Of a DNA stretch of 64,000 nt, positions 6,601-39,600 are shown piece by piece. Each line of letters starts with the position of its first letter. The first letter of the stretch is position 1. The stretch is taken from assembly GCA_947623455.1 (NCBI GenBank), contig OX392538.1:37556001-37620000 (forward strand), read 5' to 3'. Position numbers and translations under genes: made by a program. This DNA is from Mimachlamys varia (taxonomy: Eukaryota; Mollusca; Bivalvia; Pectinida; Pectinidae). The notes beneath the pieces were generated by a model. That model ran no database searches. It had not been told where the DNA came from and saw nothing but the letters and a program-made list of their open reading frames with translations.

Positions 6601-9600
6601 TGAGATGCCCTTTAGGTTGTGATAAAGCTGTATAAAAGAACCTTGAATTATTATTTGTTGTTAGATACATGACGAGGAAGCTGTTTGCGTTTGCGCGGGG
6701 AGAATGTGCCGAGGAGAGCCCGGACAACACCATGTACCAGGAGGTGTTACTCAGTGGTCATCTCATGTGTATGTTTGTAAAGGTGAGAAACAATGACAGG
6801 TCACAGACAGTCAAAACCTTGATATCTCCCGAAGCTGAAGGCACCATGAATAAACCTTGTGTTATCCTAGTATTCAAATGATGTCAGTTAGAATGCTGAG
6901 AAACAGTGAAAGGTCACAGAGAGTCAAAACCTTGATATCTCCCGAAGCTGACGGCACCATGAATAAACCTTGCGTTATCCTAGTATTCAAATGATGTCAG
7001 TTAGAATGCTGAGAAACAGTGACAGGTCACAGACAGTCAAAACCTTGATATCTCCCGAAGCTGACGGCACCATGAAAAAACCATGAGTTATCCTAGTATT
7101 CAAATGATGTCAGTTAGAATGCTGAGAAACAGTGACAGGTCACAGAGAGTCAAAACCTTGATATCTCCCGAAGCTGACGGCACCATGAAAAAACCATGAG
7201 TTATCCTAGTATTCAAATGATGTCAGTTAGAATGCTGAGTATGAAATCTGGCGAGGAATGAAGAAGTACCTAAGCATTGAAGTGTCTTGATATGGTCTTT
7301 ATGGTCGATATAAATGGCAGAGCTTTGGTCTTTATGGTCGATATAAATGACAGAGCTTTGGTCTTTATGGTCGATATAAATGACAGAGCTTTGGTCTTTA
7401 TGGTCGATATAAATGACAGAGCTTTGGTCTTTATGGTCGATATAAATGACAAGAGCTTTGGTCTTTATAGTCGATATAAATGACAGAGCTTTGGTCTTTA
7501 TAGTCGATATAAATGACAGAGCTTTGGTCTTTATGGTCGATATAAATGGCAGAGTTTTGGTCTTTATGGTCGATATAAATGACAGAGCTTTGGTCTTTAT
7601 AATCGATATAAATGACAGCTTTGGTCTTTATGGTCAATATAAATGACAGAGCTTTGGTCTTTATGGTCGATATAAATGACAGAGCTTTGGTCTTTATGGT
7701 CGATATAAATGACAGAGCTTTGATCTTTATAATCGATATAAATGACAGAGCTTTGGTCTTTATGGTCGATATAAATGGCAGAGCTTTGGTCTTTATAATC
7801 GATATAAATGACAGAGCTTTGGTCTTTATAATCGATATAAATGACAGAGCTTTGGTCTTTATGGTCGATATAAATGACAGAGCTTTGATCTTTATGGTCA
7901 ATATAAATGGCAGAGCTTTGGTCTTTATAGTCGATATAAATGACAGAGCTTTGGTCTTTATAGTCGATATAAATGACAGAGCTTTGGTCTTTATGGTCGA
8001 TATAAATGGCAGAGCTTTGGTCTTTATGGTCGATATAAATGACAGAGCTTTGGTCTTTATAGTCGATATAAATGGCAGAGCTTTGGTCTTTATGGTCGAT
8101 ATAAATGACAGAGCTTTGGTCATTATGGTCAATATAAATGAAAAGAGCTTTGGTCTTTATGGTCGATATAAATGACAGAGATATAATGGTCTTTATGGTC
8201 GATATAAATGACAGAGCTTTGGTCTTTATGGTCGATATAAATGACAGAGCTTTGGCTTTATAGTCGATATAGATGGCAGAGCTTTGCAGGCAAACTTCAT
8301 ATTGCATACAAGCACAATACAATATGTTTGCCTGCAAATTTCTCCCCTTTATAACGACCATAAAACCATATCAAAACACTTCATTGCTTATATCTACATT
8401 TCCTATAATTCATGTTGCCGACATATACTGATTTCAATTCGATTTAAACTATATATGATGAGTGTTAAAAATTTGGTACCAGCTCAAGACAGGATGATTT
8501 GCTAGTATAACCTGATTTCTTCAAACTAACACAGAATATATCAGATATTAATTAAAACTCTTTCAGTGCTGGAGACTCATTTGAACTCCTCCAATTCCAA
8601 GGTTGGAATAGTTCATTATGAAATTTTAGGGGTGAATAATAAAACATACAAATCATGTTGAAATGTAAAGAAAGACCATAGACAACTCTGTCTCATGTAA
8701 ATCTTTAAAATGCTTCTCCTTCTGTAGGAATGAAGGGAAGCAAACCAAATATTGTCAAGAACACCCTTGTGCAAAGGGGCACAATTTTGTAGAAACTAAT
8801 GTATGATTTAAGGAATTTTAACCACATGTTATGTAAAGCATCCATTGGTTATATCTGAAGGCTGGGATTCATTTAATTTAGGGTTGTCAACATCAGTAAC
8901 CGAAAAAGTAGGTTCCCCAGCAAAAACAGCAAGAATCGTGCTGTAGAAAGCACGGAATCCATCTTTGCTATTACCGGAAATGAGGCTAATGAATTGTGGG
9001 TAATGAGGTAACATGCTTATATTTAGAAAACAAAATCACTTCTGATATCAGGCAGGCAGGAATTACTGCCGGCAGTGGCAGAGGTTAAGGAATTCCATGG
9101 CATGAATTCCTGCCCGCAGGCAAAGAGTTAATGAGAATATTTTATCAACTTAAAGGTTGTTTTTATCGAAGTTGAATTTTCGAATGAGATGTACAGGTCC
9201 TCTGGGCCTCTTGTTACAATTTCAAAATCTTTTGCAAACCACTGATAGATAGTTGCGGTATGATTGCAGGAGAAGATCCACGACTGGGTGAGGAACTTAA
9301 AGATGCAAGTGGAGAAGGAAGCTAAAATAAAGGACAAGTCAGGCAACAAGTACAATGTAGATGATGGTACGTGTTAATTAACCCAACAAGTACAATGTAG
9401 ATGATGGTACATGTTAATTAGCCCAAAAAGTACAATGTAGATGATGGTACGTGTTAATTAACCCAAAAAGTACAATGTAGATGATGGTACATGTTAATTC
9501 ACCCAACAAGTACAGTCAAGATGATGGTACGTGTTAATTAACCCAACCAGTACAATGTAGATGATGGTACATGTTAATTAGCCCAACAAGTACAGTGTAG

Positions 9601-12600
9601 ATGATGATACGTGTTAATTAGCCCAACAAGTACAATGTAGATGATGGTACGTGTTAATTAGCCCAACAAGTACAGTGTGGATGATGGTACGTGTTAATTA
9701 GCCCAACAAGTACAGTGTAGATGATGGTACATGTTAATTAGCCCAACAAGTACAGTGTAGATGATGGTACGTGTTAATTAGCCCAACAAGTACAATGTAG
9801 ATGATGGTACGTGTTAATTAGCCCAACAAGTACAGTGTAGATGATGGTACGTGTTAATTAGCCCAACAAGTACAGTGTAGATGATGGTACGTGTTAATTA
9901 GCCCAACAAGTACAATGTAGATGATGGTACGTGTTAATTAGCCCAACAAGTACAGTGTAGATGATGGTACGTGTTAATTAGCCCAACAAGTACAGTGTAG
10001 ATGATGGTACATGTTAATTAACCCAACAAGTACAATGTAGATGATGATACGTGTTAATTAGTCCAACAAGTACAATGTAGATGATGGTACATGTTAATTA
10101 GTCCAACAAGTACAATGTAGATGATGGTACGTGTTAATTAGCCCAACAAGTACAATGTAGATGATGGTACGTGTTAATTAGCCCAACAAGTACAGTGTAG
10201 ATGATGGTACGTGTTAATTAGCCCAACAAGTACAGTCAAGATGATGGTACGTGTTAATTAGTCCAACAAGTACAATGTAGATGATGGTACATGTTAATTA
10301 GTCCAACAAGTACAATGTAGATGATGGTACGTGTTAATTAACCCAACAAGTACAATGTAGATGATGGTACGTGTTAATTAACCCAACAAGTACAATGTAG
10401 ATGATGGTACGTGTTAATTAACCCAAAAAGTACAATGTAGATGATGGTACGTGTTAATTAGCCCAACAAGTACAATGTAGATGATGGTAGTCGTGTTAAT
10501 TAACCCAACAAGTACAGTGTAGATGATGGTACGTGTTAATTAGCCCAACAAGTACAATGTAGATGATGGTAGTCGTGTTAATTAACCCAACAAGTACAGT
10601 GTAGATGATGGTACGTGTTAATTAGCCCAACAAGTACAATGTAGATGATGGTACGTGTTAATTAACCCAACAAGTACAATGTAGATGATGGTACGTGTTA
10701 ATTAGCCCAACAAGTACAATGTAGATGATGGTACGTGTTAATTAACCCAACAAGTACAGTGTAGATGATGGTACGTGTTAATTAACCCAACAAGTACAGT
10801 GTAGATGATGGTACGTGTTAATTAGCCCAACAAGTACAATGTAGATGATGGTACGTGTTAATTAACCCAACAAGTACAGTGTAGATGATGATACGTGTTA
10901 ATTAGCCCAACAAGTACAGTGTAGATGATGGTACGTGTTAATTAGTCCAACAAGTACAGTCAAGATGATGATACGTGTTAATTAGTCCAACAAGTACAAT
11001 GTAGATGATGGTACGTGTTAATTAACCCAACAAGTACAATGTAGATGATGATACGTGTTAATTAGTCCAACAAGTACAGTCAAGATGATGATACGTGTTA
11101 ATTAGTCCAACAAGTACAATGTAGATGATGGTACGTGTTAATTAACCCAACAAGTACAATGTAGATGATGGTACATGTTAATTAACCCAACAAGTACAGT
11201 GTAGATGATGGTACGCGTTAATTAGCCCAACAAGTACAATGTAGATGATGGTACGTGTTAATTAGCCCAACAAGTACAATGTAGATGATGATACGTGTTA
11301 ATTAGTCCAACAAGTACAGTGTAGATGATGGTACGTGTTAATTAGTCCAACAAGTACAGTGTAGATGATGGTACATGTTAATTAGTCCAACAAGTACAGT
11401 CAAGATGATGATACGTGTTAATTAGTCCAACAAGTACAATGTAGATGATGGTACGTGTTAATTAACCCAACAAGTACAATGTAGATGATGATACGTGTTA
11501 ATTAACCCAACAAGTACAATGTAGATGATGATACGTGTTAATTAGTCCAACAAGTACAGTGTAGATGATGGTACATGTTAATTAGCCCAACAAGTACAAT
11601 GTAGATGATGGTACATGTTAATTAGCCCAACAAGTACAATGTAGATGATGGTACGTGTTAATTAGCCCAACAAGTACAATGTAGATGATGGTACATGTTA
11701 ATTAACCCAACAAGTACAGTGTAGATGATGGTACGTGTTAATTAGTCCAACAAGTACAATGTAGATGATGATACGTGTTAATTAGCCCAAAAAGTACAAT
11801 GTAGATGATGGTACGTGTTAATTAACCCAACAAGTACAATGTAGATGATGGTACGTGTTAATTAGCCCAACAAGTACAATGTAGATGATGGTACGTGTTA
11901 ATTAGCCCAACAAGTACAGTGTAGATGATGGTACATGTTAATTAACCCAACAAGTACAGTGTAGATAATGGTACGTGTTAGTTCGCCCAACAAGTACAGT
12001 GTAGATGATGGTACGTGTTAATTAGTCCAACAAGTACAATGTAGATGATGGTACGTGTTAATTAGCCCAACAAGTACAGTGTAGATGATGGTACATGTTA
12101 ATTAACCCAACAAGTACAGTGTAGATGATGGTACGTGTTAATTAACCCAACAAGTACAGTGTAGATAATGGTACGTGTTAATTAGTCCAACAAGTACAAT
12201 GTAGATGATGGTACGTGTTAATTAGTCCAACAAGTACAATGTAGATGATGGTACGTGTTAATTAACCCAACAAGTACAATGTAGATGATGATACGTGTTA
12301 ATTAGTCCAACAAGTACAGTGTAGATGATGGTACGTGTTAATTAGTCCAACAAGTACAGTGTAGATGATGGTACATGTTAATTAGTCCAACAAGTACAAT
12401 GTAGATGATGGTACGTGTTAATTAACCCAACAAGTACAGTGTAGATGATGGTACATGTTAATTAGCCCAAAAAGTACAATGTAGATGATGGTACGTGTTA
12501 ATTAACCCAACAAGTACAATGTAGATGATGGTACATGTTAATTAGCCCAAAAAGTACAATGTAGATGATGGTACGTGTTAATTAACCCAACAAGTACAAT

Positions 12601-15600
12601 GTAGATGATGGTACGTGTTAATTAACCCAACAAGTACAATGTAGATGATGGTACGTGTTAATTAACCCAACAAGTACAGTGTAGATGATGGTACGTGTTA
12701 ATTAACCCAACAAGTACAATGTAGATGATGGTACGTGTTAATTAGCCCAACAAGTACAATGTAGATGATGGTACGTGTTAATTAGCCCAACAAGTACAAT
12801 GTAGATGATGGTACGTGTTAATTAACCCAACAAGTACAATGTAGATGATGGTACGTGTTAATTAACCCAACAAGTACAATGTAGATGATGGTACGTGTTA
12901 ATCAACCCAACAAGTACAGTGTAGATGATGGTACGTGTTAATTAACCCAACAAGTACAGTGTAGATGATGGTACATGTTAATTAACCCAACAAGTACAAT
13001 GTAGATGATGGTACGTGTTAATTAGCCCAACAAGTACAATGTAGATGATGGTACGTGTTAATTAGCCCAACAAGTACAGTGTAGATGATGGTACATGTTA
13101 ATTAACCCAACAAGTACAGTGTAGATAATGGTACGTGTTAGTTCGCCCAACAAGTACAGTGTAGATGATGGTACGTGTTAATTAGCCCAACAAGTACAAT
13201 GTAGATAATGGTACATGTTAGTTCGCCCAACAAGTACAGTCAAGATGATGGTACGTGTTAATTAGTCCAACAAGTACAATGTAGATGATGGTACGTGTTA
13301 ATTAGTCCAACAAGTACAATGTAGATGATGGTACATGTTAATTAACCCAACAAGTACAATGTAGATGATGATACGTGTTAATTAGCCCAACAAGTACAAT
13401 GTAGATGATGGTACGTGTTAATTAGCCCAACAAGTACATTGAGATGATGGTACGTGTTAATCAACCCAACAAGTACAATGTAGATGATGGTACGTGTTAA
13501 TTAACCCAACAAGTACAATGTAGATGATGGTAGTCGTGTTAATTAACCCAACAAGTACAGTGTAGATGATGGTACGTGTTAATTAGCCCAACAAGTACAA
13601 TGTAGATGATGGTACGTGTTAATTAACCCAACAAGTACAATGTAGATGATGGTACGTGTTAATTAGCCCAACAAGTACAATGTAGATGATGGTACGTGTT
13701 AATTAACCCAACAAGTACAGTGTAGATGATGGTACGTGTTAATTAACCCAACAAGTACAGTGTAGATGATGGTACGTGTTAATTAGCCCAACAAGTACAA
13801 TGTAGATGATGGTACGTGTTAATTAACCCAACAAGTACAGTGTAGATGATGATACGTGTTAATTAGCCCAACAAGTACAGTGTAGATGATGGTACGTGTT
13901 AATTAGTCCAACAAGTACAGTCAAGATGATGATACGTGTTAATTAGTCCAACAAGTACAATGTAGATGATGGTACGTGTTAATTAACCCAACAAGTACAA
14001 TGTAGATGATGATACGTGTTAATTAGTCCAACAAGTACAGTCAAGATGATGATACGTGTTAATTAGTCCAACAAGTACAATGTAGATGATGGTACGTGTT
14101 AATTAACCCAACAAGTACAATGTAGATGATGGTACATGTTAATTAACCCAACAAGTACAGTGTAGATGATGGTACGCGTTAATTAGCCCAACAAGTACAA
14201 TGTAGATGATGGTACGTGTTAATTAGCCCAACAAGTACAATGTAGATGATGATACGTGTTAATTAGTCCAACAAGTACAGTGTAGATGATGGTACGTGTT
14301 AATTAGTCCAACAAGTACAGTGTAGATGATGGTACATGTTAATTAGTCCAACAAGTACAGTCAAGATGATGATACGTGTTAATTAGTCCAACAAGTACAA
14401 TGTAGATGATGGTACGTGTTAATTAACCCAACAAGTACAATGTAGATGATGATACGTGTTAATTAACCCAACAAGTACAATGTAGATGATGATACGTGTT
14501 AATTAGTCCAACAAGTACAGTGTAGATGATGGTACATGTTAATTAGCCCAACAAGTACAATGTAGATGATGGTACATGTTAATTAGCCCAACAAGTACAA
14601 TGTAGATGATGGTACGTGTTAATTAGCCCAACAAGTACAATGTAGATGATGGTACATGTTAATTAACCCAACAAGTACAGTGTAGATGATGGTACGTGTT
14701 AATTAGTCCAACAAGTACAATGTAGATGATGATACGTGTTAATTAGCCCAAAAAGTACAATGTAGATGATGGTACGTGTTAATTAACCCAACAAGTACAA
14801 TGTAGATGATGGTACGTGTTAATTAGCCCAACAAGTACAATGTAGATGATGGTACGTGTTAATTAGCCCAACAAGTACAGTGTAGATGATGGTACATGTT
14901 AATTAACCCAACAAGTACAGTGTAGATAATGGTACGTGTTAGTTCGCCCAACAAGTACAGTGTAGATGATGGTACGTGTTAATTAGTCCAACAAGTACAA
15001 TGTAGATGATGGTACGTGTTAATTAGCCCAACAAGTACAGTGTAGATGATGGTACATGTTAATTAACCCAACAAGTACAGTGTAGATGATGGTACGTGTT
15101 AATTAACCCAACAAGTACAGTGTAGATAATGGTACGTGTTAATTAGTCCAACAAGTACAATGTAGATGATGGTACGTGTTAATTAGTCCAACAAGTACAA
15201 TGTAGATGATGGTACGTGTTAATTAACCCAACAAGTACAATGTAGATGATGATACGTGTTAATTAGTCCAACAAGTACAGTGTAGATGATGGTACGTGTT
15301 AATTAGTCCAACAAGTACAGTGTAGATGATGGTACATGTTAATTAGTCCAACAAGTACAATGTAGATGATGGTACGTGTTAATTAACCCAACAAGTACAG
15401 TGTAGATGATGGTACATGTTAATTAGCCCAAAAAGTACAATGTAGATGATGGTACGTGTTAATTAACCCAACAAGTACAATGTAGATGATGGTACATGTT
15501 AATTAGCCCAAAAAGTACAATGTAGATGATGGTACGTGTTAATTAACCCAACAAGTACAATGTAGATGATGGTACGTGTTAATTAACCCAACAAGTACAA

Positions 15601-18600
15601 TGTAGATGATGGTACGTGTTAATTAACCCAACAAGTACAGTGTAGATGATGGTACGTGTTAATTAACCCAACAAGTACAATGTAGATGATGGTACGTGTT
15701 AATTAGCCCAACAAGTACAATGTAGATGATGGTACGTGTTAATTAGCCCAACAAGTACAATGTAGATGATGGTACGTGTTAATTAACCCAACAAGTACAA
15801 TGTAGATGATGGTACGTGTTAATTAACCCAACAAGTACAATGTAGATGATGGTACGTGTTAATCAACCCAACAAGTACAGTGTAGATGATGGTACGTGTT
15901 AATTAACCCAACAAGTACAGTGTAGATGATGGTACATGTTAATTAACCCAACAAGTACAATGTAGATGATGGTACGTGTTAATTAGCCCAACAAGTACAA
16001 TGTAGATGATGGTACGTGTTAATTAGCCCAACAAGTACAGTGTAGATGATGGTACATGTTAATTAACCCAACAAGTACAGTGTAGATAATGGTACGTGTT
16101 AGTTCGCCCAACAAGTACAGTGTAGATGATGGTACGTGTTAATTAGCCCAACAAGTACAATGTAGATAATGGTACATGTTAGTTCGCCCAACAAGTACAG
16201 TCAAGATGATGGTACGTGTTAATTAGTCCAACAAGTACAATGTAGATGATGGTACGTGTTAATTAGTCCAACAAGTACAATGTAGATGATGGTACATGTT
16301 AATTAACCCAACAAGTACAATGTAGATGATGATACGTGTTAATTAGCCCAACAAGTACAATGTAGATGATGGTACGTGTTAATTAGCCCAACAAGTACAT
16401 TGAGATGATGGTACGTGTTAATCAACCCAACAAGTACAATGTAGATGATGGTACGTGTTAATTAACCCAACAAGTACAATGTAGATGATGGTATGTGTTA
16501 ATTAGTCCAACAAGTACAATGTAGATGATGGTACGTGTTAATTAACCCAACAAGTACAATGTAGATGATGGTACATGTTAATTAGCCCAACAAGTACAAT
16601 GTAGATGATGGTACGTGTTAATTAACCCAACAAGTACAATGTAGATGATGGTGTGTGTTAATTAGTCCAACAAGTACAATGTAGATGATGGTACATGTTA
16701 ATTAGCCCAACAAGTACAATGTAGATGATGGTACGTGTTAATTAACCCAACAAGTACAATGTAGATGATGGTACGTGTTAATTAACCCAACAAGTACAAT
16801 GTAGATGATGGTACGTGTTAATTAGCCCAACAAGTGCAATGTAGATGATGGTACGTGTTAATTAACCCAACAAGTACAATGTAGATGATGGTACGTGTTA
16901 ATCAACCCAACAAGTACAATGTAGATGATGGTACGTGTTAATTAACCCAACAAGTACAATGTAGATGATGGTATGTGTTAATTAGCCCAACAAGTACAAT
17001 GTAGATGATGGTACGTGTTAATTAGTCCAACAAGTACAATGTAGATGATGGTACGTGTTAATTAGCCCAACAAGTACATTGAGATGATGGTACGTGTTAA
17101 TCAACCCAACAAGTACAATGTAGATGATGGTACGTGTTAATTAACCCAACAAGTACAATGTAGTTAATGGTACGTGTTAATTAGCCCAAAAAGTACAATG
17201 TAGATGATGGTACGTGTTAATTAACCCAACAAGTACAATGTAGTTAATGGTACGTGTTAATTAGCCCAAAAAGTACAATGTAGATGATGGTACGTGTTAA
17301 TTAACCCAACAAGTACAATGTAGATGATGATACTTGTTAATTAGCCCAAAAAGTACAATGTAGATGATGGTACGTGTTAATTAGCCCAACAAGTACAATG
17401 TAGATGATGGTACGTGTTAATTAACCCAACAAGTACAATGTAGATGATGGTACGTGTTAATTAACCCAACAAGTACAATGTAGATGATGGTACGTGTTAA
17501 TTAACCCAACAAGTACAGTGTAGATGATGGTACATGTTAATCAACCCAACAAGTACAATGTAGATGATGGTACGTGTTAATTAACCCAACAAGTACCGTG
17601 TAGATGATGGTACGTGTTAATTAGTCCAACAAGTACAATGTAGATGATGGTACGTGTTAATCAACCCAACAAGTACAGTGTAGATGATGGTACGTGTTAA
17701 TTAGTCCAACAAGTACAATGTAGATGATGGTACGTGTTAATCAACCCAACAAGTACAGTGTAGATGATGGTACGTGTTAATTAACCCAACAAGTACAATG
17801 TAGATGATGGTACGTGTTAATTAGCCCAACAAGTACAATGTAGATAATGGTATGTGTTAATTAGCCCTAAAAGTACAATGTAGATGATGGTACATGTTAA
17901 TTAGCCCAACAAGTACAATGTAGATGATGGTACGTGTTAATTAGTCCAAAAAGTACAGTGTAGATGATGGTACGTGTTAATTAACCCAACAAGTACAGTG
18001 TAGATGATGGTACGTGTTAATTAACCCAACAAGTACAGTGTAGATGATGGTACGTGTTAATTAGCCCAAAAAGTACAATGTAGATGATGGTACGTGTTAA
18101 TTAGTCCAACAAGTACAATGTAGATGATGGTACGTGTTAATTAACCCAACAAGTACCGTGTAGATGATGGTACGTGTTAATTAACCCAACAAGTACAATG
18201 TAGATGATGGTACATGTTAATTAGTCCAACAAGTACAATGTAGATGATGGTGCGTGTTAATTAACCCAACAAGTACAATGTAGATGATGGTACATGTTAA
18301 TTAGTCCAACAAGTACAATGTAGATGATGGTACGTGTTAATTAACCCAACAAGTACCGTGTAGATGATGGTACGTGTTAATTAACCCAACAAGTACCGTG
18401 TAGATGATGGTACGTGTTAATTAGTCCAACAAGTACAATGTAGATGATGGTACGTGTTAATCAACCCAACAAGTACAATGTAGATGATGGTACATGTTAA
18501 TTAACCCAACAAGTACAGTGTAGATGATGGTACGTGTTAATTAGTCCAACAAGTACAGTGTAGATGATGGTACGTGTTAATTAACCCAACAAGTACAATG

Positions 18601-21600
18601 TAGATGATGGTACGTGTTAATTAGTCCAACAAGTACAATGTAGATGATGGTACGTGTTAATTAACCCAACAAGTACAATGTAGATGATGGTACGTGTTAA
18701 TTAGTCCAACAAGTACAATGTAGATGATGGTACGTGTTAATTAGCCCAACAAGTACAATGTAGATGATGGTACATGTTAATTAACCCAACAAGTACAATG
18801 TAGATGATGGTACGTGTTAATTAGCCCAACAAGTACAGTCTAGATGATGGTACGTGTTAATTAACCCAACAAGTACAGTGTAGATGATGGTACGTGTTAA
18901 TTAACCCAACAAGTACAATGTAGATGATGGTACATGTTAATTAACCCAACAAGTACAATGTAGATGATGGTACGTGTTAATTAACCCAACAAGTACCGTG
19001 TAGATGATGGTACGTGTTAATTAACCCAACCAGTACCGTGTAGATGATGGTACGTGTTAATTAGTCCAACAAGTACAATGTAGATGATGGTACGTGTTAA
19101 TCAACCCAACAAGTACAATGTAGATGATGGTACATGTTAATTAACCCAACAAGTACAGTGTAGATGATGGTACGTGTTAATTAGTCCAACAAGTACAATG
19201 TAGATGATGGTACGTGTTAATCAACCCAACAAGTACAGTGTAGATGATGGTACGTGTTAATTAACCCAACAAGTACAATGTAGATGATGGTACGTGTTAA
19301 TTAGCCCAACAAGTACAATGTAGATGATGGTACGTGTTAATTAGTCCAAAAAGTACAGTGTAGATGATGGTACGTGTTAATTAACCCAACAAGTACAGTG
19401 TAGATGATGGTACGTGTTAATTAACCCAACAAGTACAGTGTAGATGATGGTACGTGTTAATTAGCCCAAAAAGTACAATGTAGATGATGGTACGTGTTAA
19501 TTAGTCCAACAAGTACAATGTAGATGATGGTACGTGTTAATTAACCCAACAAGTACAATGTAGATGATGGTACGTGTTAATTAGCCCAACAAGTACAATG
19601 TAGATGATGGTACGTGTTAATTAACCCAACAAGTGCAATGTAGATGATGGTACGTGTTAATTAGCCCAACAAGTACAATGTAGATGATGGTACGTGTTAA
19701 TTAACCCAACAAGTACAATGTAGATGATGGTACGTTTTAATTAGCCCAAAAAGTACAATGTAGATGATGGTACGTGTTAATTAGCCCAAAAAGTACAGTG
19801 TAGATGATGGTACGTGTTAATTTAAGCCCAACAAGTACAATGTAGATGATGGTACGTGTTAATTTAAGCCCAACAAGTACAATGTAGATGATGGTACGTG
19901 TTAATTAACCCAACAAGTACAATGTAGATGATGGTACGTGTTAATTTAAGCCCAACAAGTACAATGTAGATGATGGTACGTGTTAATTAACCCAAAAAGT
20001 ACAATGTAGATGATGGTACGTGTTAATTAACCCAACAAGTACAATGTAGATGATGGTACATGTTAATTAACCCAACAAGTACAATGTAGATGATGGTACA
20101 TGTTAATTAACCCAACAAGTACAATATAGATGATGGTACGTGTTAATTAGCCCAACAAGTACAGTGTAGATGATGGTACGTGTTAATTAGCCCAACAAGT
20201 ACAATGTAGATGATGGTACGTGTTAATTAACCCAACAAGTACAATGTAGATGATGGTACATGTTAATTAACCCAACAAGTACAATATAGATGATGGTACG
20301 TGTTAATTAACCCAACAAGTACAATGTAGATGATGGTACATGTTAATTAGCCCAACAAGTACAATGTAGATGATGGTACATGTTAATTAACCCAACAAGT
20401 ACAATGTAGATGATGGTACGTGTTAATTAACCCAACAAGTACAATGTAGATGATAATACGTGTTAATTAACCCAACAAGTACAATGTAGATGATGGTACA
20501 TGTTAATTAACCCAACAAGTACAATGTAGATGATGGTACATGTTAATTAACCCAACAAGTACAATATAGATGATGGTACGTGTTAATTAACCCAACAAGT
20601 ATAATGTAGATGATGGTATGTGTTAATTTAAGTCCAACAAGTACAATGTAGATGATGGTACGTGTTAATTAGCCCAAAAAGTACAATGTAGATGATGGTA
20701 CAAGTTAATTAACCCAACAAGTACAATGTAGATGATGGTACGTGTTAATTAACCCAACAAGTACAATGTAGATGATGGTACAAGTTAATTAACCCAACAA
20801 GTACAATGTAGATGATGGTACGTGTTAATTAGCCCAAAAAGTACAATGTAGATAATGGTACGTGTTAATTAGCCCAAAAAGTACAATGTAGATGATGGTA
20901 TGTGTAAATTAACCCAAAAAGTACAATGTAGATGATGGTACATGTTAATTAACCCAAAAAGTATAATGTAGATGATGGTACGTGTTAATTAACCCAAAAA
21001 GTACAATGTAGATGATGGTACGTGTTAATTAATCCAAAAAGTACAATGTAGATGATGGTACGTGTTAATTAACCCAACAAGTACAATGTAGATGATGGTA
21101 CGTGTTAATTAACCCAAAAAGTATAATGTAGATGATGGTACGTGTTAATTAACCCAAAAAGTACAATGTAGATGATGGTACGTGTTAATTAACCCAACAA
21201 GTACAATGTAGATGATGGTACGTGTTAATTAATCCAAAAAGTACAATGTAGATGATGGTACGTGTTAATTAACCCAAAAAGTATAATGTAGATGATGGTA
21301 CGTGTTAATTAATCCAAAAAGTACAATGTAGATGATGGTACGTGTTAATTAACCCAACAAGTACAATGTAGATGGTGGTACGTGTTAATTAGCCTAACAA
21401 GTACATGTACAATATAGATGATGGTACGTGTTAATTTAAGCCCAAAAAGTCAATGTAGATGATGGTACGTGTTAATTAGCCCAACAAGTACAATGTAGAT
21501 GATGGTATGTGTTAATTAACCCAACAAGTACAATGTAGATGATGGTACGTGTTAATTAACCCAACAAGTACAATGTAGATGATGGTACGTGTTAATTAGC

Positions 21601-24600: not shown

Positions 24601-27600
24601 TACAATGTAGATAATGGTACGTGTTAATTTAAGCCCAACAAGTACAATGTAGATGATGGTACGTGTTAATTAGCCCAACAAGTACAATGTAGATGATGGT
24701 ACGTGTTAATTAGTCCAACAAGTACAATGTAGATGATGGTACGTGTTAATTAGTCTAACAAGTACAATGTAGATGATGGTACGTGTTAATTAGCCCAACA
24801 AGTACAATGTAGATGATGGTACGTGTTAATTAACCCAACAAGTATAATGTAGATGATGGTACGTGTTAATTAACCCAACAAGTACAATGTAGATGATGGT
24901 ACGTGTTAATTAGTCTAACAAGTACAATGTAGATGATGGTACGTGTTAATTTAAGCCCAACAAGTACAATGTAGATGATGGTACGTGTTAATTAGCCCAA
25001 CAAGTACAATGTAGATGATGGTACGTGTTAATTTAAGCCCAACAAGTACAATGTAGATGATGGTACGTGTTAATTAACCCAACAAGTACAGTGTAGATGA
25101 TGGTACGTGTTAATTAGTCCAACAAGTACAATGTAGATGGTACGTGTTAATTAGTCCAACAAGTACAGTGTAGATGATGGTACGTGTTAATTAACCCAAC
25201 AAGTACAGTGTAGGTGATGGTACGTGTTAATTAACCCAACAAGTACAGTGTAGATGATGGTACGTGTTAATTTAAGCCCAACAAGTACAGTGTAGATGAT
25301 GGTACATGTTAATTAACCCAACAAGTACAGTGTAGATGATGGTACATGTTAATTAGTCCAACAAGTACAGTGTAGATGATGGTACATGTTAATTAGTCCA
25401 ACAAGTACAGTGTAGATGATGGTACGTGTTAATTAGTCCAACAAGTACAGTGTAGATGATGGTACGTGTTAATTAACCCAACAAGTACAGTGTAGATGAT
25501 GGTACGTGTTAATTAGTCCAACAAGTACAGTGTAGATGATGGTACGTGTTAATTAGCCCAACAAGTACAATGTAGATGATGGTACGTGTTAATTAACCCA
25601 ACAAGTACAATATAGATGATGGTACGTGTTAATGAACCCAACAAGTACAATGTAGATGATGGTACGTGTTAATTTAAGCCCAACAAGTACAATGTATATG
25701 ATGGTACGTGTTAATTTAAGCCCAACAAGTACAATGTAGATGATGGTACGTGTTAATTAACCCAACAAGTACGATGTAGATAATGGTACGTGTTAATTTA
25801 AGCCCAACAAGTACAATGTAGATGATGGTACGTGTTAATTTAAGCCCAACAAGTACAGTGTAGATGATGGTACGTGTTAATTTAAGCCCAACAAGTACAG
25901 TGTAGATGATGGTACGTGTTAATTAACCCAACAAGTACAGTGTAGGTGATGGTACGTGTTAATTAACCCAACAAGTACAGTGTAGATGATGGTACGTGTT
26001 AATTTAAGCCCAACAAGTACAGTGTAGATGATGGTACGTGTTAATTTAAGCCCAACAAGTACAGTGTAGATGATGATATGTGTTAATTAGCCCAACAAGT
26101 ACAATGTAGATGATGGTACGTGTTAATTAGCCCAACAAGTACAATGTAGATGATGGTACGTGTTAATTTAAGCCCAACAAGTACAGTGTAGATGATGGTA
26201 CGTGTTAATTAACCCAACAAGTACAATGTAGATGATGGTACGTGTTAATTAGCCCAACAAGTACAATGTAGATGATGGTACGTGTTAATTTAAGCCCAAC
26301 AAGTACAATGTAGATGATGGTACGTGTTAATTAACCCAAAAAGTACAATGTAGATGATGGTATATGTTAATTAACCCAACAAGTACAGTGTAGATGATGG
26401 TACGTGTTAATTAGCCCAAAAAGTACAGTGTAGATGATGGTACGTGTTAATTAGCCCAACAAGTACAATGTAGATGATGGTACATGTTAATTAGCCCAAC
26501 AAGTACAATGTAGATGATGGTACGTGTTAATTAGCCCAACAAGTACAGTCTAGATGATGGTACGTGTTAATTAACCCAACAAGTACAGTGTAGATGATGG
26601 TACGTGTTAATTTAAGCCCAACAAGTACAGTGTAGATGATGGTACATGTTAATTAACCCAACAAGTACAGTGTAGATGATGGTACATGTTAATTAGTCCA
26701 ACAAGTACAGTGTAGATGATGGTACATGTTAATTAGTCCAACAAGTACAGTGTAGATGATGGTACGTGTTAATTAGTCCAACAAGTACAGTGTAGATGAT
26801 GGTACGTGTTAATTAACCCAACAAGTACAGTGTAGATGATGGTACGTGTTAATTAGTCCAACAAGTACAGTGTAGATGATGGTACGTGTTAATTTAAGCC
26901 CAACAAGTACAATGTATATGATGGTACGTGTTAATTTAAGCCCAACAAGTACAATGTAGATGATGGTACGTGTTAATTAACCCAACAAGTACGATGTAGA
27001 TAATGGTACGTGTTAATTTAAGCCCAACAAGTACAATGTAGATGATGGTACGTGTTAATTTAAGCCCAACAAGTACAGTGTAGATGATGGTACGTGTTAA
27101 TTTAAGCCCAACAAGTACAGTGTAGATGATGGTACGTGTTAATTAACCCAACAAGTACAGTGTAGGTGATGGTACGTGTTAATTAACCCAACAAGTACAG
27201 TGTAGATGATGGTACGTGTTAATTTAAGCCCAACAAGTACAGTGTAGATGATGGTACGTGTTAATTTAAGCCCAACAAGTACAGTCTCGATTATGGTACG
27301 TGTTAATTAGCCCAACAAGTACAATGTAGATGATGGTATATGTTAATTAACCCAACAAGTACAGTGTAGATGATGGTACGTGTTAATTAGCCCAAAAAGT
27401 ACAGTGTAGATGATGGTACGTGTTAATTTAAGCCCAACAAGTACAGTGTAGATGATGGTACGTGTTAATTAGCCCAACAAGTACAATGTAGATGATGGTA
27501 CATGTTAATTAACCCAAAAAGTACAATGTAGATGATGGTATATGTTAATTAACCCAACAAGTACAGTGTAGATGATGGTACGTGTTAATTAGCCCAAAAA

Positions 27601-30600
27601 GTACAGTGTAGATGATGGTACGTGTTAAATAGCCCAACAAGTACAATGTAGATGATGGTACATGTTAATTAGCCCAACAAGTACAATGTAGATGATGGTA
27701 CGTGTTAATTAGCCCAACAAGTACAGTCTAGATGATGGTACGTGTTAATTAACCCAACAAGTACAATATAGATGATGGTACGTGTTAATTTAAGCCCAAC
27801 AAGTACAATGTAGATGATGGTACGTGTTAATTTAAGCCCAACAAGTACAATGTAGATGATGGTACGTGTTAATTAACCCAACAAGTACAATGTAGATGAT
27901 GGTATGTGTTAATTAGTCCAACAAGTACAATGTAGATGATGGTATGTGTTAATTAGCCCAACAAGTACAATGTAGATGATGATACGTGTTAATTAACCCA
28001 ACAAGTACAATGTAGATGATGGTACGTGTTAATTAGCCCAACAAGTACAATGTAGATGATGGTACGTGTTAATTAGCCCAACAAGTACAATGTAGATGAT
28101 GGTACGTGTTAATTAGCCCAACAAGTACAATGTAGATGATGGTACGTGTTAATTAGCCCAACAAGTACAGTGTAGATGATGGTACGTGTTAATTTAAGCC
28201 CAACAAGTACAATGTAGATGATGGTACGTGTTAATTTAAGCCCAACAAGTACAATATAGATGATGGTACATGTTAATTTAAGCCCAACAAGTACAATGTA
28301 GATGATGGTACGTGTTAATTAGCCCAACAAGTATAATGTAGATGATGGTACGTGTTAATTTAAGCCCAACAAGTACAATGTAGATGATGGTACGTGTTAA
28401 TTAACCCAACAAGTACAATGTAGATGATGGTACGTGTTAATTAACCCAGCAAGTACAATGTAGATGATGGTACGTGTTAATTAACCCAGCAAGTACAATG
28501 TAGATGATGGTACGTGTTAATTAACCCAACAAGTACAATGTAGATGATGGTACGTGTTAATTAACCCAACAAGTACAATGTAGATGATGGTACGTGTTAA
28601 TTAACCCAGCAAGTACAATGTAGATGATGGTACGTGTTAATTTAAGCCCAACAAGTACAATGTAGATGATGGTACGTGTTAATTAACCCAACAAGTACAA
28701 TGTAGATGATGGTACGTGTTAATTAACCCAACAAGTACAATGTAGATGATGGTACGTGTTAATTAACCCAACAAGTACAGTGTAGATGATGGTACGTGTT
28801 AATTAGCCCAACAAGTACAATGTAGATGATGGTACGTGTTAATTAGTCCAACAAGTACAATGTAGATGATGGTACATGTTAATTAGTCCAACAAGTACAA
28901 TGTAGATGATGGTACGTGTTAATTAACCCAACAAGTACAATGTAGATGATGGTACGTGTTAATTAACCCAACAAGTACAATGTAGATAATGGTACGTGTT
29001 AATTAGTCCAACAAGTACAGTGTAGATGATGGTACGTGTTAATTTAAGCCCAACAAGTACAATGTAGATGATGGTACATGTTAATTAGTCCAACAAGTAC
29101 AATGTAGATGATGGTACATGTTAATTAACCCAACAAGTACAGTGTAGATGATGGTACGTGTTAATTTAAGCCCAACAAGTACAATGTAGATAATGGTACG
29201 TGTTAATTTAAGCCCAACAAGTACAATGTAGATGATGGTACGTGTTAATTTAAGCCCAACAAGTACAATGTAGATGATGGTACGTGTTAATTAGCCCAAC
29301 AAGTACAATGTAGATGATGGTACGTGTTAATTAGTCCAACAAGTACAATGTAGATGATGGTACGTGTTAATTAGTCTAACAAGTACAATGTAGATGATGG
29401 TACGTGTTAATTAGCCCAACAAGTACAATGTAGATGATGGTACGTGTTAATTAACCCAACAAGTATAATGTAGATGATGGTACGTGTTAATTAACCCAAC
29501 AAGTACAATGTAGATGATGGTACGTGTTAATTAGTCTAACAAGTACAATGTAGATGATGGTACGTGTTAATTTAAGCCCAACAAGTACAATGTAGATGAT
29601 GGTACGTGTTAATTAGCCCAACAAGTACAATGTAGATGATGGTACGTGTTAATTTAAGCCCAACAAGTACAATGTAGATGATGGTACGTGTTAATTAACC
29701 CAACAAGTACAGTGTAGATGATGGTACGTGTTAATTAGTCCAACAAGTACAATGTAGATGATGGTACGTGTTAATTAGTCCAACAAGTACAGTGTAGATG
29801 ATGGTACGTGTTAATTAACCCAACAAGTACAGTGTAGGTGATGGTACGTGTTAATTAACCCAACAAGTACAGTGTAGATGATGGTACGTGTTAATTTAAG
29901 CCCAACAAGTACAGTGTAGATGATGGTACATGTTAATTAACCCAACAAGTACAGTGTAGATGATGGTACATGTTAATTAGTCCAACAAGTACAGTGTAGA
30001 TGATGGTACATGTTAATTAGTCCAACAAGTACAGTGTAGATGATGGTACGTGTTAATTAGTCCAACAAGTACAGTGTAGATGATGGTACGTGTTAATTAA
30101 CCCAACAAGTACAGTGTAGATGATGGTACGTGTTAATTAGTCCAACAAGTACAGTGTAGATGATGGTACGTGTTAATTAGCCCAACAAGTACAATGTAGA
30201 TGATGGTACGTGTTAATTAACCCAACAAGTACAATATAGATGATGGTACGTGTTAATCAACCCAACAAGTACAATGTAGATGATGGTACGTGTTAATTTA
30301 AGCCCAACAAGTACAATGTATATGATGGTACGTGTTAATTTAAGCCCAACAAGTACAATGTAGATGATGGTACGTGTTAATTAACCCAACAAGTACGATG
30401 TAGATAATGGTACGTGTTAATTTAAGCCCAACAAGTACAATGTAGATGATGGTACGTGTTAATTTAAGCCCAACAAGTACAGTGTAGATGATGGTACGTG
30501 TTAATTTAAGCCCAACAAGTACAGTGTAGATGATGGTACGTGTTAATTAACCCAACAAGTACAGTGTAGGTGATGGTACGTGTTAATTAACCCAACAAGT

Positions 30601-33600
30601 ACAGTGTAGATGATGGTACGTGTTAATTTAAGCCCAACAAGTACAGTGTAGATGATGGTACGTGTTAATTTAAGCCCAACAAGTACAGTGTAGATGATGA
30701 TATGTGTTAATTAGCCCAACAAGTACAATGTAGATGATGGTACGTGTTAATTAGCCCAACAAGTACAATGTAGATGATGGTACGTGTTAATTTAAGCCCA
30801 ACAAGTACAGTGTAGATGATGGTACGTGTTAATTAACCCAACAAGTACAATGTAGATGATGGTACGTGTTAATTAGCCCAACAAGTACAATGTAGATGAT
30901 GGTACGTGTTAATTTAAGCCCAACAAGTACAATGTAGATGATGGTACATGTTAATTAACCCAAAAAGTACAATGTAGATGATGGTATATGTTAATTAACC
31001 CAACAAGTACAGTGTAGATGATGGTACGTGTTAATTAGCCCAAAAAGTACAGTGTAGATGATGGTACGTGTTAATTAGCCCAACAAGTACAATGTAGATG
31101 ATGGTACATGTTAATTAGCCCAACAAGTACAATGTAGATGATGGTACGTGTTAATTAGCCCAACAAGTACAGTCTAGATGATGGTACGTGTTAATTAACC
31201 CAACAAGTACAATATAGATGATGGTACGTGTTAATTTAAGCCCAACAAGTACAATGTAGATGATGGTATGTGTTAATTTAAGCCCAACAAGTACAATGTA
31301 GATGATGGTACGTGTTAATTAGCCCAACAAGTATAATGTAGATGATGGTACGTGTTAATTTAAGCCCAACAAGTACAATGTAGATGATGGTACGTGTTAA
31401 TTAGCCAAACAAGTACAGTCTAGATGATGGTACATGTTAATTAACCCAACAAGTACAATGTAGATGATGGTACATGTTAATTAACCCAACAAGTACAATG
31501 TAGATGATGGTACGTGTTAATTAACCCAACAAGTACAGTGTATATGATGGTACGTGTTAATTAGTCCAACAAGTACAATGTAGATGATGGTACGTGTTAA
31601 TTAGTCCAACAAGTACAATGTAGATGATGGTACATGTTAATTAACCCAACAAGTACAATGTAGATGATGGTACGTGTTAATTAACCCAACAAGTACAGTG
31701 TATATGATGGTACGTGTTAATTAGTCCAACAAGTACAATGTAGATGATGGTACGTGTTAATTAGTCCAACAAGTACAATGTAGATGATGGTACATGTTAA
31801 TTAACCCAACAAGTACAATGTAGATGATGGTACGTGTTAATTAACCCAACAAGTACAGTGTATATGATGGTACGTGTTAATTAGTCCAACAAGTACAATG
31901 TAGATGATGGTACGTGTTAATTTAAGCCCAACAAGTACAATGTAGATAATGGTACGTGTTAATTAACCCAACAAGTACAATGTAGATGATGGTACGTGTT
32001 AATTTAAGCCCAACAAGTACAATGTAGATGATGGTACGTGTTAATTAACCCAACAAGTACAATGTAGATGATGGTACGTGTTAATCAGTCCAACAAGTAC
32101 AATGTAGATGATGGTACGTGTTAATTAGCCCAACAAGTACAGTGTAGATGATGGTACGTGTTAATTAGCCCAACAAGTACAATGTAGATAATGGTACGTG
32201 TTAATTTAAGCCCAACAAGTACAATGTAGATGATGGTACGTGTTAATTTAAGCCCAACAAGTACAGTGTAGATGATGGTACGTGTTAATTTAAGCCCAAC
32301 AAGTACAATGTAGATGATGGTACGTGTTAATTTAAGCCCAACAAGTACAATGTAGATGATGGTACGTGTTAATTTAAGCCCAACAAGTACAATGTAGATG
32401 ATGGTACGTGTTAATTAACCCAACAAGTACAGTCTAGATGATGGTACGTGTTAATTAACCCAACAAGTACAGTCTAGATTATGGTACGTGTTAATTAACC
32501 CAACAAGTACAATGTAGATGATGGTACGTGTTAATTAACCCAAAAAGTACAGTGTAGATGATGGTACGTGTTAATTAGCCCAAAAAGTACAGTCTAGATG
32601 ATGGTACGTGTTAATTAACCCAACAAGTACAATGTAGATGATGGTACGTGTTAATTTAAGCCCAACAAGTACAATGTAGATGATGGTACGTGTTAATTTA
32701 AGCCCAACAAGTACAATGTAGATGATGGTACGTGTTAATTAGCCCAACAAGTATAATGTAGATGATGGTACGTGTTAATTTAAGCCCAACAAGTACAATG
32801 TAGATGATGGTACGTGTTAATTAGCCAAACAAGTACAGTCTAGATGATGGTACGTGTTAATTAACCCAAAAAGTACAATGTAAATGATGGTACGTGTTAA
32901 TTAGCCCAAAAAGTACATTGTAGATGATGGTACGTGTTAATTAGCCCAAAAAGTACAATGTAGATGATGATACGTGTTAATTAGCCCAATAAGTACAGTG
33001 TAGATGATGGTACGTGTTAATTAGCCCAACAAGTACAATATAGATGATGGTACGTGTTAATTAGCCCAAAAAGTACAATGTAGATGATGGTACGTGTTAA
33101 TTAGCCCAAAAAGTACAATGTAGATGATGGTACGTGTTAATTAACCCAACAAGTACAGTCTAGATGATGGTACGTGTTAATTTAAGCCCAACAAGTACAA
33201 TGTAGATGATGGTACGTGTTAATTTAAGCCCAACAAGTACAATGTAGATGATGGTACGTGTTAATTAGCCCAACAAGTATAATGTAGATGATGGTACGTG
33301 TTAATTTAAGCCCAACAAGTACAATGTAGATGATGGTACGTGTTAATTAGCCAAACAAGTACAGTCTAGATGATGGTACGTGTTAATTAACCCAAAAAGT
33401 ACAATGTAAATGATGGTACGTGTTAATTAGCCCAAAAAGTACATTGTAGATGATGGTACGTGTTAATTAGCCCAAAAAGTACAATGTAGATGATGATACG
33501 TGTTAATTAGCCCAACAAGTACAATGTAGATGATGGTACGTGTTAATTTAAGCCCAACAAGTACAATGTAGATGATGGTACGTGTTAATTTAAGCCCAAC

Positions 33601-36600
33601 AAGTACAATGTAGATGATGGTACGTGTTAATTAGCCCAACAAGTACAATGTAGATGATGGTACGTGTTAATTTAAGCCCAACAAGTACAATGTAGATGAT
33701 GGTACGTGTTAATTAGCCCAACAAGTACAATGTAGATGATGGTACGTGTTAATTTAAGCCCAACAAGTACAATGTAGATGATGGTACGTGTTAATTTAAG
33801 CCCAACAAGTACAATGTAGATGATGGTACGTGTTAATTAACCCAACAAGTACAATGTAGATAATGGTACGTGTTAATTTAAGCCCAACAAGTACAATGTA
33901 GATGATGGTACGTGTTAATTTAAGCCCAACAAGTACAGTGTAGATGATGGTACGTGTTAATTTAAGCCCAACAAGTACAATGTAGATGATGGTACGTGTT
34001 AATTTAAGCCCAACAAGTACAATGTAGATGATGGTACGTGTTAATTTAAGCCCAACAAGTACAATGTAGATGATGGTACGTGTTAATTAGCCCAACAAGT
34101 ACAATGTAGATGATGGTACGTGTTAATTAACCCAACAAGTACAGTGTAGATGATGGTACGTGTTAATTAGCCCAACAAGTACAATGTAGATGATGGTACG
34201 TGTTAATTAACCCAACAAGTACAGTCTAGATGATGGTACGTGTTAATTAACCCAACAAGTACATGTAGTCTAGATTATGGTACGTGTTAATTAACCCAAC
34301 AAGTACAATGTAGATGATGGTACGTGTTAATTAACCCAAAAAGTACAGTGTAGATGATGGTACGTGTTAATTAGCCCAACAAGTACAATGTAGCTGATGG
34401 TACGTGTTAATTAGCCCAACAAGTACAATGTAGATGATGGTACGTGTTAATTAGCCCAACAAGTACAGTCTAGATGATGGTACGTGTTAATTAACCCAAC
34501 AAGTACAATATAGATGATGGTACGTGTTAATTTAAGCCCAACAAGTACAATGTAGATGATGGTACGTGTTAATTTAAGCCCAACAAGTACAATGTAGATG
34601 ATGGTACGTGTTAATTAGCCCAACAAGTATAATGTAGATGATGGTACGTGTTAATTTAAGCCCAACAAGTACAATGTAGATGATGGTACGTGTTAATTAG
34701 CCCAACAAGTACAATGTAGATGATGGTACGTGTAAATTTAAGCCCAACAAGTACAGTGTAGATGATGGTACGTGTTAATTTAAGCCCAACAAGTACAATG
34801 TAGATGATGGTACCTGTTAATTAACCCAACAAGTACAATGTAGATAATGGTACGTGTTAATTAGCCCAACAAGTACAATGTAGATGATGGTACGTGTTAA
34901 TTAGCCCAACAAGTACAATGTAGATGATGGTACGTGTTAATTAGCCCAACAAGTACAATGTAGATGATGGTACGTGTTAATTAGCCCAACAAGTACAATG
35001 TAGATGATGGTACGTGTTAATTAGCCCAACAAGTACAATGTAGATTATGGTATGTGTTAATTAGCCCAACAAGTACAGTGTAGATGATGGTACGTGTTAA
35101 TTTAAGCCCAACAAGTACAATGTAGATGATGGTACGTGTTAATTAGCCCAACAAGTACAATGTAGATGATGGTACGTGTTAATTAGCCCAACAAGTATAA
35201 TGTAGATGATGGTACGTGTTAATTTAAGCCCAACAAGTACAATGTAGATGATGGTACGTGTTAATTAGCCCAACAAATACAATGTAGATGATGGTACGTG
35301 TTAATTTAAGCCCAACAAGTACAATGTAGATGATGGTACGTGTTAATTAGCCCAAAAAGTACAATGTAGATGATGGTACGTGTTAATTAGCCCAACAAGT
35401 ACAGTGTAGATGATGGTACGTGTTAATTAGCCCAACAAGTACAATATAGATGATGGTACGTGTTAATTAGCCCAAAAAGTACAATGTAGATGATGGTACG
35501 TGTTAATTAGCCCAAAAAGTACAATGTAGATGATGGTACGTGTTAATTAGCCCAAAAAGTACAATGTAGATGATGGTACGTGTTAATTAGCCCAACAAGT
35601 ACAGTGTAGATGACGGTACGTGTTAATTAGCCCAACAAGTACAATGTAGATGATGGTACGTGTTAATTAACCCAACAAGTACAGTGTAGATGATGGTACG
35701 TGTTAATTAGTCCAACAAGTACAGTGTAGATGATGGTACGTGTTAATTAGCCCAACAAGTACAGTGTAGATGATGATATGTGTTAATTAGCCCAACAAGT
35801 ACAGTCTAGATGATGGTACGTGTTAATTAACCCAACAAGTACAATATAGATGATGGTACGTGTTAATTAACCCAACAAGTACAATGTAGATGATGGTACA
35901 TGTTAATTAGCCCAACAAGTACAATGTAGATGATGGTACATGTTAATTAGCCCAACAAGTACAATGTAGATGATGGTACATGTTAATTAGCCCAACAAGT
36001 ACAATGTAGATGATGATATGTGTTAATTAGCCCAACAAGTACAGTCTAGATGATGGTACGTGTTAATTAACCCAACAAGTACAATATAGATGATGGTACG
36101 TGTTAATTAACCCAACAAGTACAATGTAGATGATGGTACATGTTAATTAGCCCAACAAGTACAATGTAGATGATGATATGTGTTAATTAGCCCAACAAGT
36201 ACAGTCTAGATGATGGTACGTGTTAATTAACCCAACAAGTACAATGTAGATGATGGTACGTGTTAATTAGCCCAACAAGTATAATGTAGATGATGGTACG
36301 TGTTAATTTAAGCCCAACAAGTACAATGTAGATGATGGTATGTGTTAATTAGCCAAACAAGTACAATGTAGATGATGGTACGTGTTAATTAACCCAAAAA
36401 GTACAATGTAGATGATGGTACGTGTTAATTAGCCCAACAAGTACAATGTAGATGATGGTACGTGTTAATTAACTCAAAAAGTACAATGTAGATAATGGTA
36501 CGTGTTAATTAACCCAACAAGTACAATGTAGATGATGGTACGTGTTAATTAGCCCAACAAGTACAATGTAGATGATGGTACGTGTTAATTAGCCCAACAA

Positions 36601-39600
36601 GTACAATGTAGATGATGGTACGTGTTAATTAGCCCAAAAAGTACAATGTAGATGATGGTACGTGTTAATTAGCCCAACAAGTACAATGTAGATGATGGTA
36701 CGTGTTAATTAGCCCAACAAGTACAATGTAGATGATGGTACGTGTTAATTAACCCAAAAAGTACAATGTAGATGATGGTACGTGTTAATTAGCCCAACAA
36801 GTACAATGTAGATGATGGTACGTGTTAATTAGCCCAAAAAGTACAATGTAGATGATGATACGTGTTAATTAGCCCAACAAGTACAATGTAGATGATGGTA
36901 CGTGTTAATTAGCCCAACAAGTACAATGCAGATGATGGTACGTGTTAATTTAAGCTCAACAAGTACAATGTAGATGATGGTACGTGTTAATTAGCCCAAC
37001 AAGTACAATGTAGATGATGGTACGTGTTAATTAGCCCAAAAAGTACAATGTAGATGATGATACGTGTTAATAAGTCCAACAAGTACAATGTAGATGATGG
37101 TACGTGTTAATTAACCCAACAAGTACAATGTAGATGATGGTACGTGTTAATTAGCCCAACAAGTACAATGTAGATGATGGTACGTGTTAATTAACCCAAA
37201 AAGTACAATGTAGATGATGGTACGTGTTAATTAACCCAACAAGTACATTGTAGATGATGGTACGTGTTAATTAACCCAACAAGTACAATGTAGATGATGG
37301 TACGTGTTAATTAGCCCAACAAGTACAATGTAGATGATGGTACGTGTTAATTAACCCAAAAAGTACAATGTAGATGATGGTACGTGTTAATTAACCCAAC
37401 AAGTACAGTGTAGATAATGGTACGTGTTAATTAACCCAACAAGTACAATGTAGATGATGGTACGTGTTAATTAGCCCAACAAGTACAATGTAGATGATGG
37501 TACGTGTTAATTAGTCCAACAAGTACAATGTAGATGATGGTACGTGTTAATTAGCCCAACAAGTACAATGTAGATGATGGTACGTGTTAATTAGCCCAAC
37601 AAGTGCAATGTAGATGATGGTACGTGTTAATTTAAGCCCAACAAGTACAATGTAGATGATGGTACATGTTAATTAGTCCAACAAGTACAGTGTAGATGAT
37701 GGTACGTGTTAATTAACCCAACAAGTACAATGTAGATGATGGTACGTGTTAATTAACCCAAAAAGTACAATGTAGATGATGGTACGTGTTAATTAGCCCA
37801 ACAAGTACAATGTAGATGATGGTACGTGTTAATTAACCCAAAAAGTACAATGTAGATGATGGTACGTGTTAATTAACCCAACAAGTACAATGTAGATGAT
37901 GGTACGTGTTAATTAACCCAACAAGTACAGTGTAGATAATGGTACGTGTTAATTAACCCAACAAGTACAATGTAGATGATGGTACGTGTTAATTAGCCCA
38001 ACAAGTACAATGTAGATGATGGTACGTGTTAATTAGTCCAACAAGTACAATGTAGATGATGGTACGTGTTAATTAGCCCAACAAGTACAATGTAGATGAT
38101 GGTACGTGTTAATTAGCCCAACAAGTGCAATGTAGATGATGGTACGTGTTAATTAGCCCAACAAGTACAATGTAGATGATGGTACGTGTTAATTAACCCA
38201 ACAAGTACAATGTAGATGATGGTATGTGTTAATTAGTCCAACAAGTACAATGTAGATGATGGTACATGTTAATTAACCCAACAAGTACAGTGTAGGTGAT
38301 GGTACGTGTTAATTAACCCAACAAGTACAATGTAGATGATTGTACGTGTTAATTAGTCCAACAAGTACAGTCTAGATGATTGTACGTGTTAATTAGTCCA
38401 ACAAGTACAATGTAGATGATGGTACATGTTAATTAGCCCAACAAGTACAGTGTAGATGATGGTACGTGTTAATTAGTCCAACAAGTACAATGTAGATGAT
38501 GGTACGTGTTAATTAACCCAAAAAGTACAATGTAGATGATGGTACATGTTAATTAGCCCAACAAGTACAGTGTAGATGATGGTACGTGTTAATTAGTCCA
38601 ACAAGTACAATGTAGATGATGGTACATGTTAATTAGCCCAACAAGTACAGTGTAGATGATGGTACGTGTTAATTAGTCCAACAAGTACAATGTAGATGAT
38701 GGTACGTGTTAATTAGTCCAACAAGTACAATGTAGATGATGGTACATGTTAATTAGCCCAACAAGTACAGTGTAGATGATGGTACATGTTAATTAGTCCA
38801 ACAAGTACAGTGTAGATGATGGTACGTGTTAATTAACCCAACAAGTACAATGTAGATGATGGTACGTGTTAATTAGCCCAACAAGTACAGTGTAGATGAT
38901 GGTACGTGTTAATTAGTCCAACAAGTACAATGTAGATGATGGTACGTGTTAATTAACCCAAAAAGTACAGTGTAGATGATGGTACATGTTAATTAACCCA
39001 ACAAGTACAATGTAGATGATGGTACGTGTTAATTAACCCAACAAGTACAATGTAGATGATGGTACGTGTTAATTAACCCAAAAAGTACAATATAGATTAT
39101 GGTACCTGTTAATTAACCCAAAAAGTACAATATAGATGATGGTACCTGTTAATTAGCCCAAAAAGTACAATGTAGATGAATGTTTGTTATCACAATTTCT
39201 TAAGAAATACATGATTGATCTTACTTAAATTTCTTATGTATGAGGTTCCGTTCGGTTCCTTAAAAGTTGCACTCTTTTGATTTTGGGACTGATCAGAAAA
39301 AGAAAATTGCTGACAGTTGATTTGTCAGTTGAAGACTATTACAGTCAATTACTAAATGTATTGTTGTTTCTTATGAGAAAAAGATGAGAAAAGTAGGGAG
39401 TAGATCCAACTTTTTATAGAACAGATCATCAGTGTTGGGTGCCTAGCTGGGTGTTCAGGTGGTGTAGTGGATAGCGCATTTGCCTTTCACAAAGGCGGCC
39501 GGGGTTCGATTCCCCGACTGGACATGAAAAGGTATGGGGTCACCTGCCCGATTACTTTGGTTTTCTCCGGGTAATCTGGTTCCTTCCCACAATAAGACCC

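Follow-up and report, generated by a model that had tools for sequence, protein, structure and literature searches.

The analyzed window comprises 64,000 nucleotides of contig OX392538.1 of the scallop Mimachlamys varia and encodes POLR1B (RPA2) from approximately residue 278 of 1145, as counted on the Pecten protein, through its end. A protein search placed Pecten maximus first at 79% identity, followed by Ylistrum balloti at 78% and Argopecten irradians at 73%, the last covering 85% of the query. Using tblastn with the Pecten protein and a spliced-alignment script, we modeled 21 exons in the window. The gene looks functional, because all 20 modeled junctions (two of them placed by eye and then checked) are GT-AG and the joined model of 869 residues has a single stop, at its end. 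Human RPA2, in a comparison with the PDB, aligns along its length, with gaps near the junction segment described below.

The fourth POLR1B exon in the window (9270..9366, forward strand, as are all features below; 97 nt, phase 1) ends in GATGATG and was placed by spliced and ortholog alignment to Pecten maximus RPA2. It is followed by an intron of 30,392 bp (9367..39758), nearly all of which is a tandem array, with 579 bp of other sequence ahead of the acceptor (ttaaag|GTTC) of the next exon (39759..39865). Among the in-frame pairs of GT or GC with AG within the ranges tried, alignment to Pecten maximus RPA2 gave the top score to the junction 9366|39759 (319, with 307 for the next best pair). 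A donor after 9349 paired with an acceptor at 39778 lay within the ranges scored, yet outside the two best pairs, and was rejected. A second AG occurs 11 nt downstream of the modeled acceptor, and the frame is broken if it is paired with the donor at 9366. The 21-residue spliced peptide across 9366|39759 aligns without gaps to Pecten maximus, and the Ylistrum sequence at the same segment reads KAGNSYSVNDSSLQNTSRRVD. The modeled junction is thus supported by orthology, and the spliced alignment to Pecten maximus RPA2 bears out the sequence-only reading, which had named POLR1B as the host gene and set the exon end at 9366. That reading had also called the exon "exon 4", a number that holds within the window and not for the gene.

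Several further observations concern this intron and its flanking exons. A tRNA-Lys-like match at 39452-39525 (ARAGORN; 33.9 bits with Rfam) lies in the non-array end of the intron; a guess would be that it forms the start of a tRNA-derived SINE. Scoring of 7,989 candidates turned up no relative, at E <= 0.001, of a 97-aa antisense frame in the array. The RPA2 model of Argopecten irradians, labeled LOW QUALITY, is missing precisely the two exons on either side of the array intron; the absent segment lies opposite Pecten residues 384-452, and this was the sole model covering less than 75% of the two-exon segment among the 120 RPA2 proteins listed. The same model also deviates at the junction preceding VPPVTE. 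The gap may represent a prediction failure caused by repeats, or exon skipping.

We further analyzed the structure of the array. In this one assembly, TRF reported a tandem array at 9344..39179 with a period of 40, 740.5 copies, 93% matches, and 1% indels, and alignment to a circular 40-bp consensus resolved 741 units across 9344-39200; both agree with the roughly 740 sense-orientation copies claimed earlier. Most units were 40 bp long (627 of 741), 106 were 42 bp, and eight had other lengths, with an indel present in 114. Mean unit identity to the consensus was 96.0%, and 120 distinct aligned forms were counted with insertions left out. The bulk of the variation is confined to four columns, without which mean divergence is 1.35%. 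No antisense copy was found within the window with a 30-mer at up to 6 edits. Head-to-tail units of about 10-100 bp define a minisatellite or VNTR, and the array is accordingly a very long minisatellite; calling it a "satellite" goes rather far while a single locus is known.

The two ends of the array differ from each other. The founder unit (9344..9383) consists of 23 exon nt and 17 intron nt, as the sequence-only reading had stated, contains the modeled 5' splice site ATG|GTACGT at 9366/9367, and shows zero differences from the array consensus. At the distal edge, the decayed last unit (39159..39200) carries 12 differences and the two units preceding it carry four each. Over the last 21 units the mean is 2.71 differences, dropping to 2.25 once the final unit is left out, compared with 1.45-2.0 in the other 60-unit segments, so that decay at the distal edge is slight once the final unit is set aside. 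An established model has unequal exchange homogenize an array while its free edge decays; a decayed edge and a consensus-identical first unit fit it without proving it.

To explain these features as a whole, we consider it likely that a 40-mer at the exon boundary was duplicated, grew into an array, was homogenized, and has been tolerated through exon definition. In this scenario, a 40-bp segment spanning the POLR1B exon-intron boundary would have been tandemly duplicated with the exon copy retained as unit 1, and unequal exchange or replication slippage, together with block duplication, would have expanded it to ~740 units and would also keep it homogeneous. The mechanism of growth, the choice of the first donor, and near-neutrality are what we infer. 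The order of events could have been the reverse, with an older satellite reaching the exon edge and supplying both the donor and the last codons. The exon copy is identical to the array consensus, as such an origin would allow, and because of this exact identity exchange between exon and array is possible. However, no gap is needed to align the coding portion of unit 1 with Pecten (NKYNVDDG here, QKYNVDEG in Pecten), and no copy of the unit was found outside the array within the window (30-mer, up to 8 edits); we regard an array-first origin as highly improbable. Since this coding portion can be aligned with Pecten and other scallops, the exon end is probably older than the array and the array was probably derived from it, as the earlier claim of an exon-founded array had it. 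A second concern is that assembly expanded a real but short array. Unit identity exceeded its chance level of 0.054 at lags 74 (0.175), 114 (0.110), and 108 (0.098), and the value at lag 74 is raised because of an exact 74-unit block: within 10544-16493, a 2,989-bp stretch at 10544..13532 recurs exactly at 13505-16493 with a lag of 2,961 bp. This is the sole exact run of 25 or more units in the array, and it may reflect either a block duplication of very recent date or a fault of assembly such as assembler stutter. However, it makes only ~3 kb of the array suspect, and the varied units elsewhere, with their many aligned forms and scattered 42-bp lengths, go beyond simple stutter. We therefore judge an artefact of this kind to be unlikely, and we retain duplication and growth from the exon boundary as the preferred account.

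To characterize the splice-donor content of the units, we scored each donor with a generic weight matrix not fitted to molluscs. The GT is intact in 704 of 741 units (703 of 740 without unit 1), and the GT plus the G at +5 in 593 of the 740 units other than unit 1. The +1 G is gone in 37 units and the +5 G in 112, chiefly through G-to-A changes (36 and 106 units, respectively). With this generic matrix, the modeled donor at 9366 reaches 7.39, compared with a median of 5.81 among 19 modeled donors of the gene, a set that left out the donor at 60209; 586 of 741 units equal or surpass the genuine site, and 698 equal or surpass the weakest of the 19. Reading through beyond the first donor adds Gly-Thr-Cys-stop, and any later donor, if used, would lead to a TAA after three codons.

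Sites with weak donors are unevenly distributed, making up 28-37% per 60 units across the first 180 units versus 7-20% in the core, and the distal end is equally rich in them (9 of the last 21 units). Selection against decoys near the genuine site is not convincing: four of the first six decoys are weak, as occurs in 4.2% of six-unit windows. No codon signature was seen in the array copies, whose mismatch rates at codon positions 1, 2, and 3 were 0.018, 0.054, and 0.017. Folding of 200 nt of array RNA gave z = -1.48, with 15 of 200 shuffles equally stable. The mean unpaired probability of the donor 9-mer was 0.657 for the genuine site and had a median of 0.565 (range 0.111-0.666) for 36 decoys scored from 40 units sampled, with no clear difference between the two. 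Ratchet sites for recursive splicing were absent from the units (eight AGGT and no CAGGT in ~30 kb), and recursive splicing of the array intron was rejected as a reading.

The 97-nt exon sits between introns of 2,487 bp upstream and 30,392 bp downstream, an arrangement that would suit exon definition. Under exon definition, donors of near-equal strength compete such that the upstream one is favored (Carranza et al. 2022, PMC9225289, as far as the accessible text of that study states). The acceptor upstream at 9270 would then be paired with the nearest donor, namely the genuine one, and the 703 later donors with an intact GT would be removed inside the intron, so that the array would be tolerated. 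Because near-equal donors favor the upstream site, we expect that the first donor, at 9366, is the one in use. However, the same accessible text gives this bias as partial in human genes, at 60% over all near-equal competition events, and has strength dominate when donors are unequal (PMC9225289). Since the bias is partial, a spread of decay-prone POLR1B products is possible, and since strength dominates where sites differ, the hundreds of competing donors may be a real load. Thus, the locus could be a natural case of splice-site competition among ~700 donors, in which either the first is picked or decay-bound POLR1B products tie the supply of a Pol I subunit to array length; we offer this reading tentatively, as a possibility short of an expectation.

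Another possibility is that the array has a function, either because its donors recruit U1 against premature polyadenylation or because they tune POLR1B output via nonsense-mediated decay. U1 is known to shield long introns from premature polyadenylation, a process termed telescripting. The high proportion of units with an intact GT and with scores at or above the weakest modeled donor would be in keeping with such a role, as would the short extension to a stop beyond the first donor. In addition, AATAAA and ATTAAA are absent from the array, compared with 22 and 23 occurrences in the rest of the window. However, this absence follows from a single homogeneous unit without such signals, and the donor positions are not notably conserved, as the losses at +1 and +5 indicate. 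A functional array is therefore improbable in our estimation, and tolerance through exon definition is the reading we carry forward.

To investigate how other repeats are placed in the gene, we tallied 21 intronic tandem arrays across the POLR1B window, including the 40-bp array. These are the rows kept of 25 reported by TRF: the four dropped comprise three overlapping a kept row (40559, 54077, and 57886) and one located past the last exon (62812). Four of the 21 have an end within 20 nt of a modeled splice site or span one, compared with a random mean of 2.31 (p = 0.18), and among arrays of at least 3.9 copies the count is 3 of 10 (p = 0.09). Under the null model, the overlap of an array with an exon could be as large as one unit; two of the intron borders used were 1-3 bases off, with no near array there. 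Because clustering at splice sites is not significant in either form, it was rejected and is not claimed.

Individual arrays illustrate the range of positions. A 113-bp array of four copies (6784-7239) abuts the donor after 6782, with one intron base ahead of it, and its three later copies have CTGAG in place of the GTGAG of the real donor. A 68-bp tandem duplication (45106-45239) spans the POLR1B acceptor at 45219; its upstream copy has a decoy acceptor that looks dead, because ACCG replaces the ACAG of the real site. The splice site is thus kept in neither of these two comparable repeats, while the 40-bp array keeps its own. A 19-bp array of 40 copies (46765-47521) is separated by 18 nt of intron from the exon end at 46746, and a 69-bp array of 28 copies (54768-56695) ends 70 bp upstream of an acceptor and keeps a frame open for 423 codons (54769-56040).

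Taken together, the locus suggests that a 30-kb array can grow out of a coding exon's edge in a gene that remains open. If the splicing model is true, hundreds of near-identical donors compete within one essential gene, and the proximity rule of exon definition becomes testable in a natural gene and beyond a pair of sites. Use of the first donor or a decay-prone spread of products would be informative either way.

Very long arrays and satellite-bearing introns are known from other genes. The accessible text on the CACNA1C intronic TRACT describes a 30-bp VNTR of 3 to more than 30 kb, for which expansion through perfect repeat tracts is proposed (PMC13131567). It resembles the POLR1B array in that a short unit is repeated to great length at one intronic locus, whereas that text presents it as intronic with no mention of a splice site (PMC13131567). 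Similarly, Drosophila kl-3 and kl-5 have gigantic introns containing satellite DNA and share with POLR1B the presence of such DNA within introns; however, these introns are of megabase size, and the satellites are not described in the accessible text as built from the genes' own splice junction (PMC6508621).

The closest counterpart is found in a human gene. The minisatellite of IFI6 (6-16, G1P3) comprises ~26 copies of a 12-bp unit and lies at the exon 2 border. According to the accessible record, it contains multiple splice donor sites, and a sentence citing the original report states that splicing uses two downstream units as donors (Turri et al. 1995). The sequence-only reading had held that a pattern such as that in POLR1B was undescribed; this does not stand, since a donor-bearing minisatellite is in print (Turri et al. 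1995). Among the titles and abstract openings covered, a partial coverage that gives weak evidence of absence, no splice-junction-built array besides that of IFI6 was found, and within the same partial search the combination of scale, 40-bp unit, and a housekeeping host encoding a Pol I subunit had no precedent. In both IFI6 and POLR1B, as far as the IFI6 record extends, minisatellite units carry splice donors of a single gene, those of POLR1B being predicted; here too the array lies at an exon-intron border and its units carry a candidate 5' splice site. The POLR1B array differs in its 40-bp unit, its ~740 copies, and its housekeeping host, and it is an extreme form of a phenomenon known on a small scale in human IFI6.
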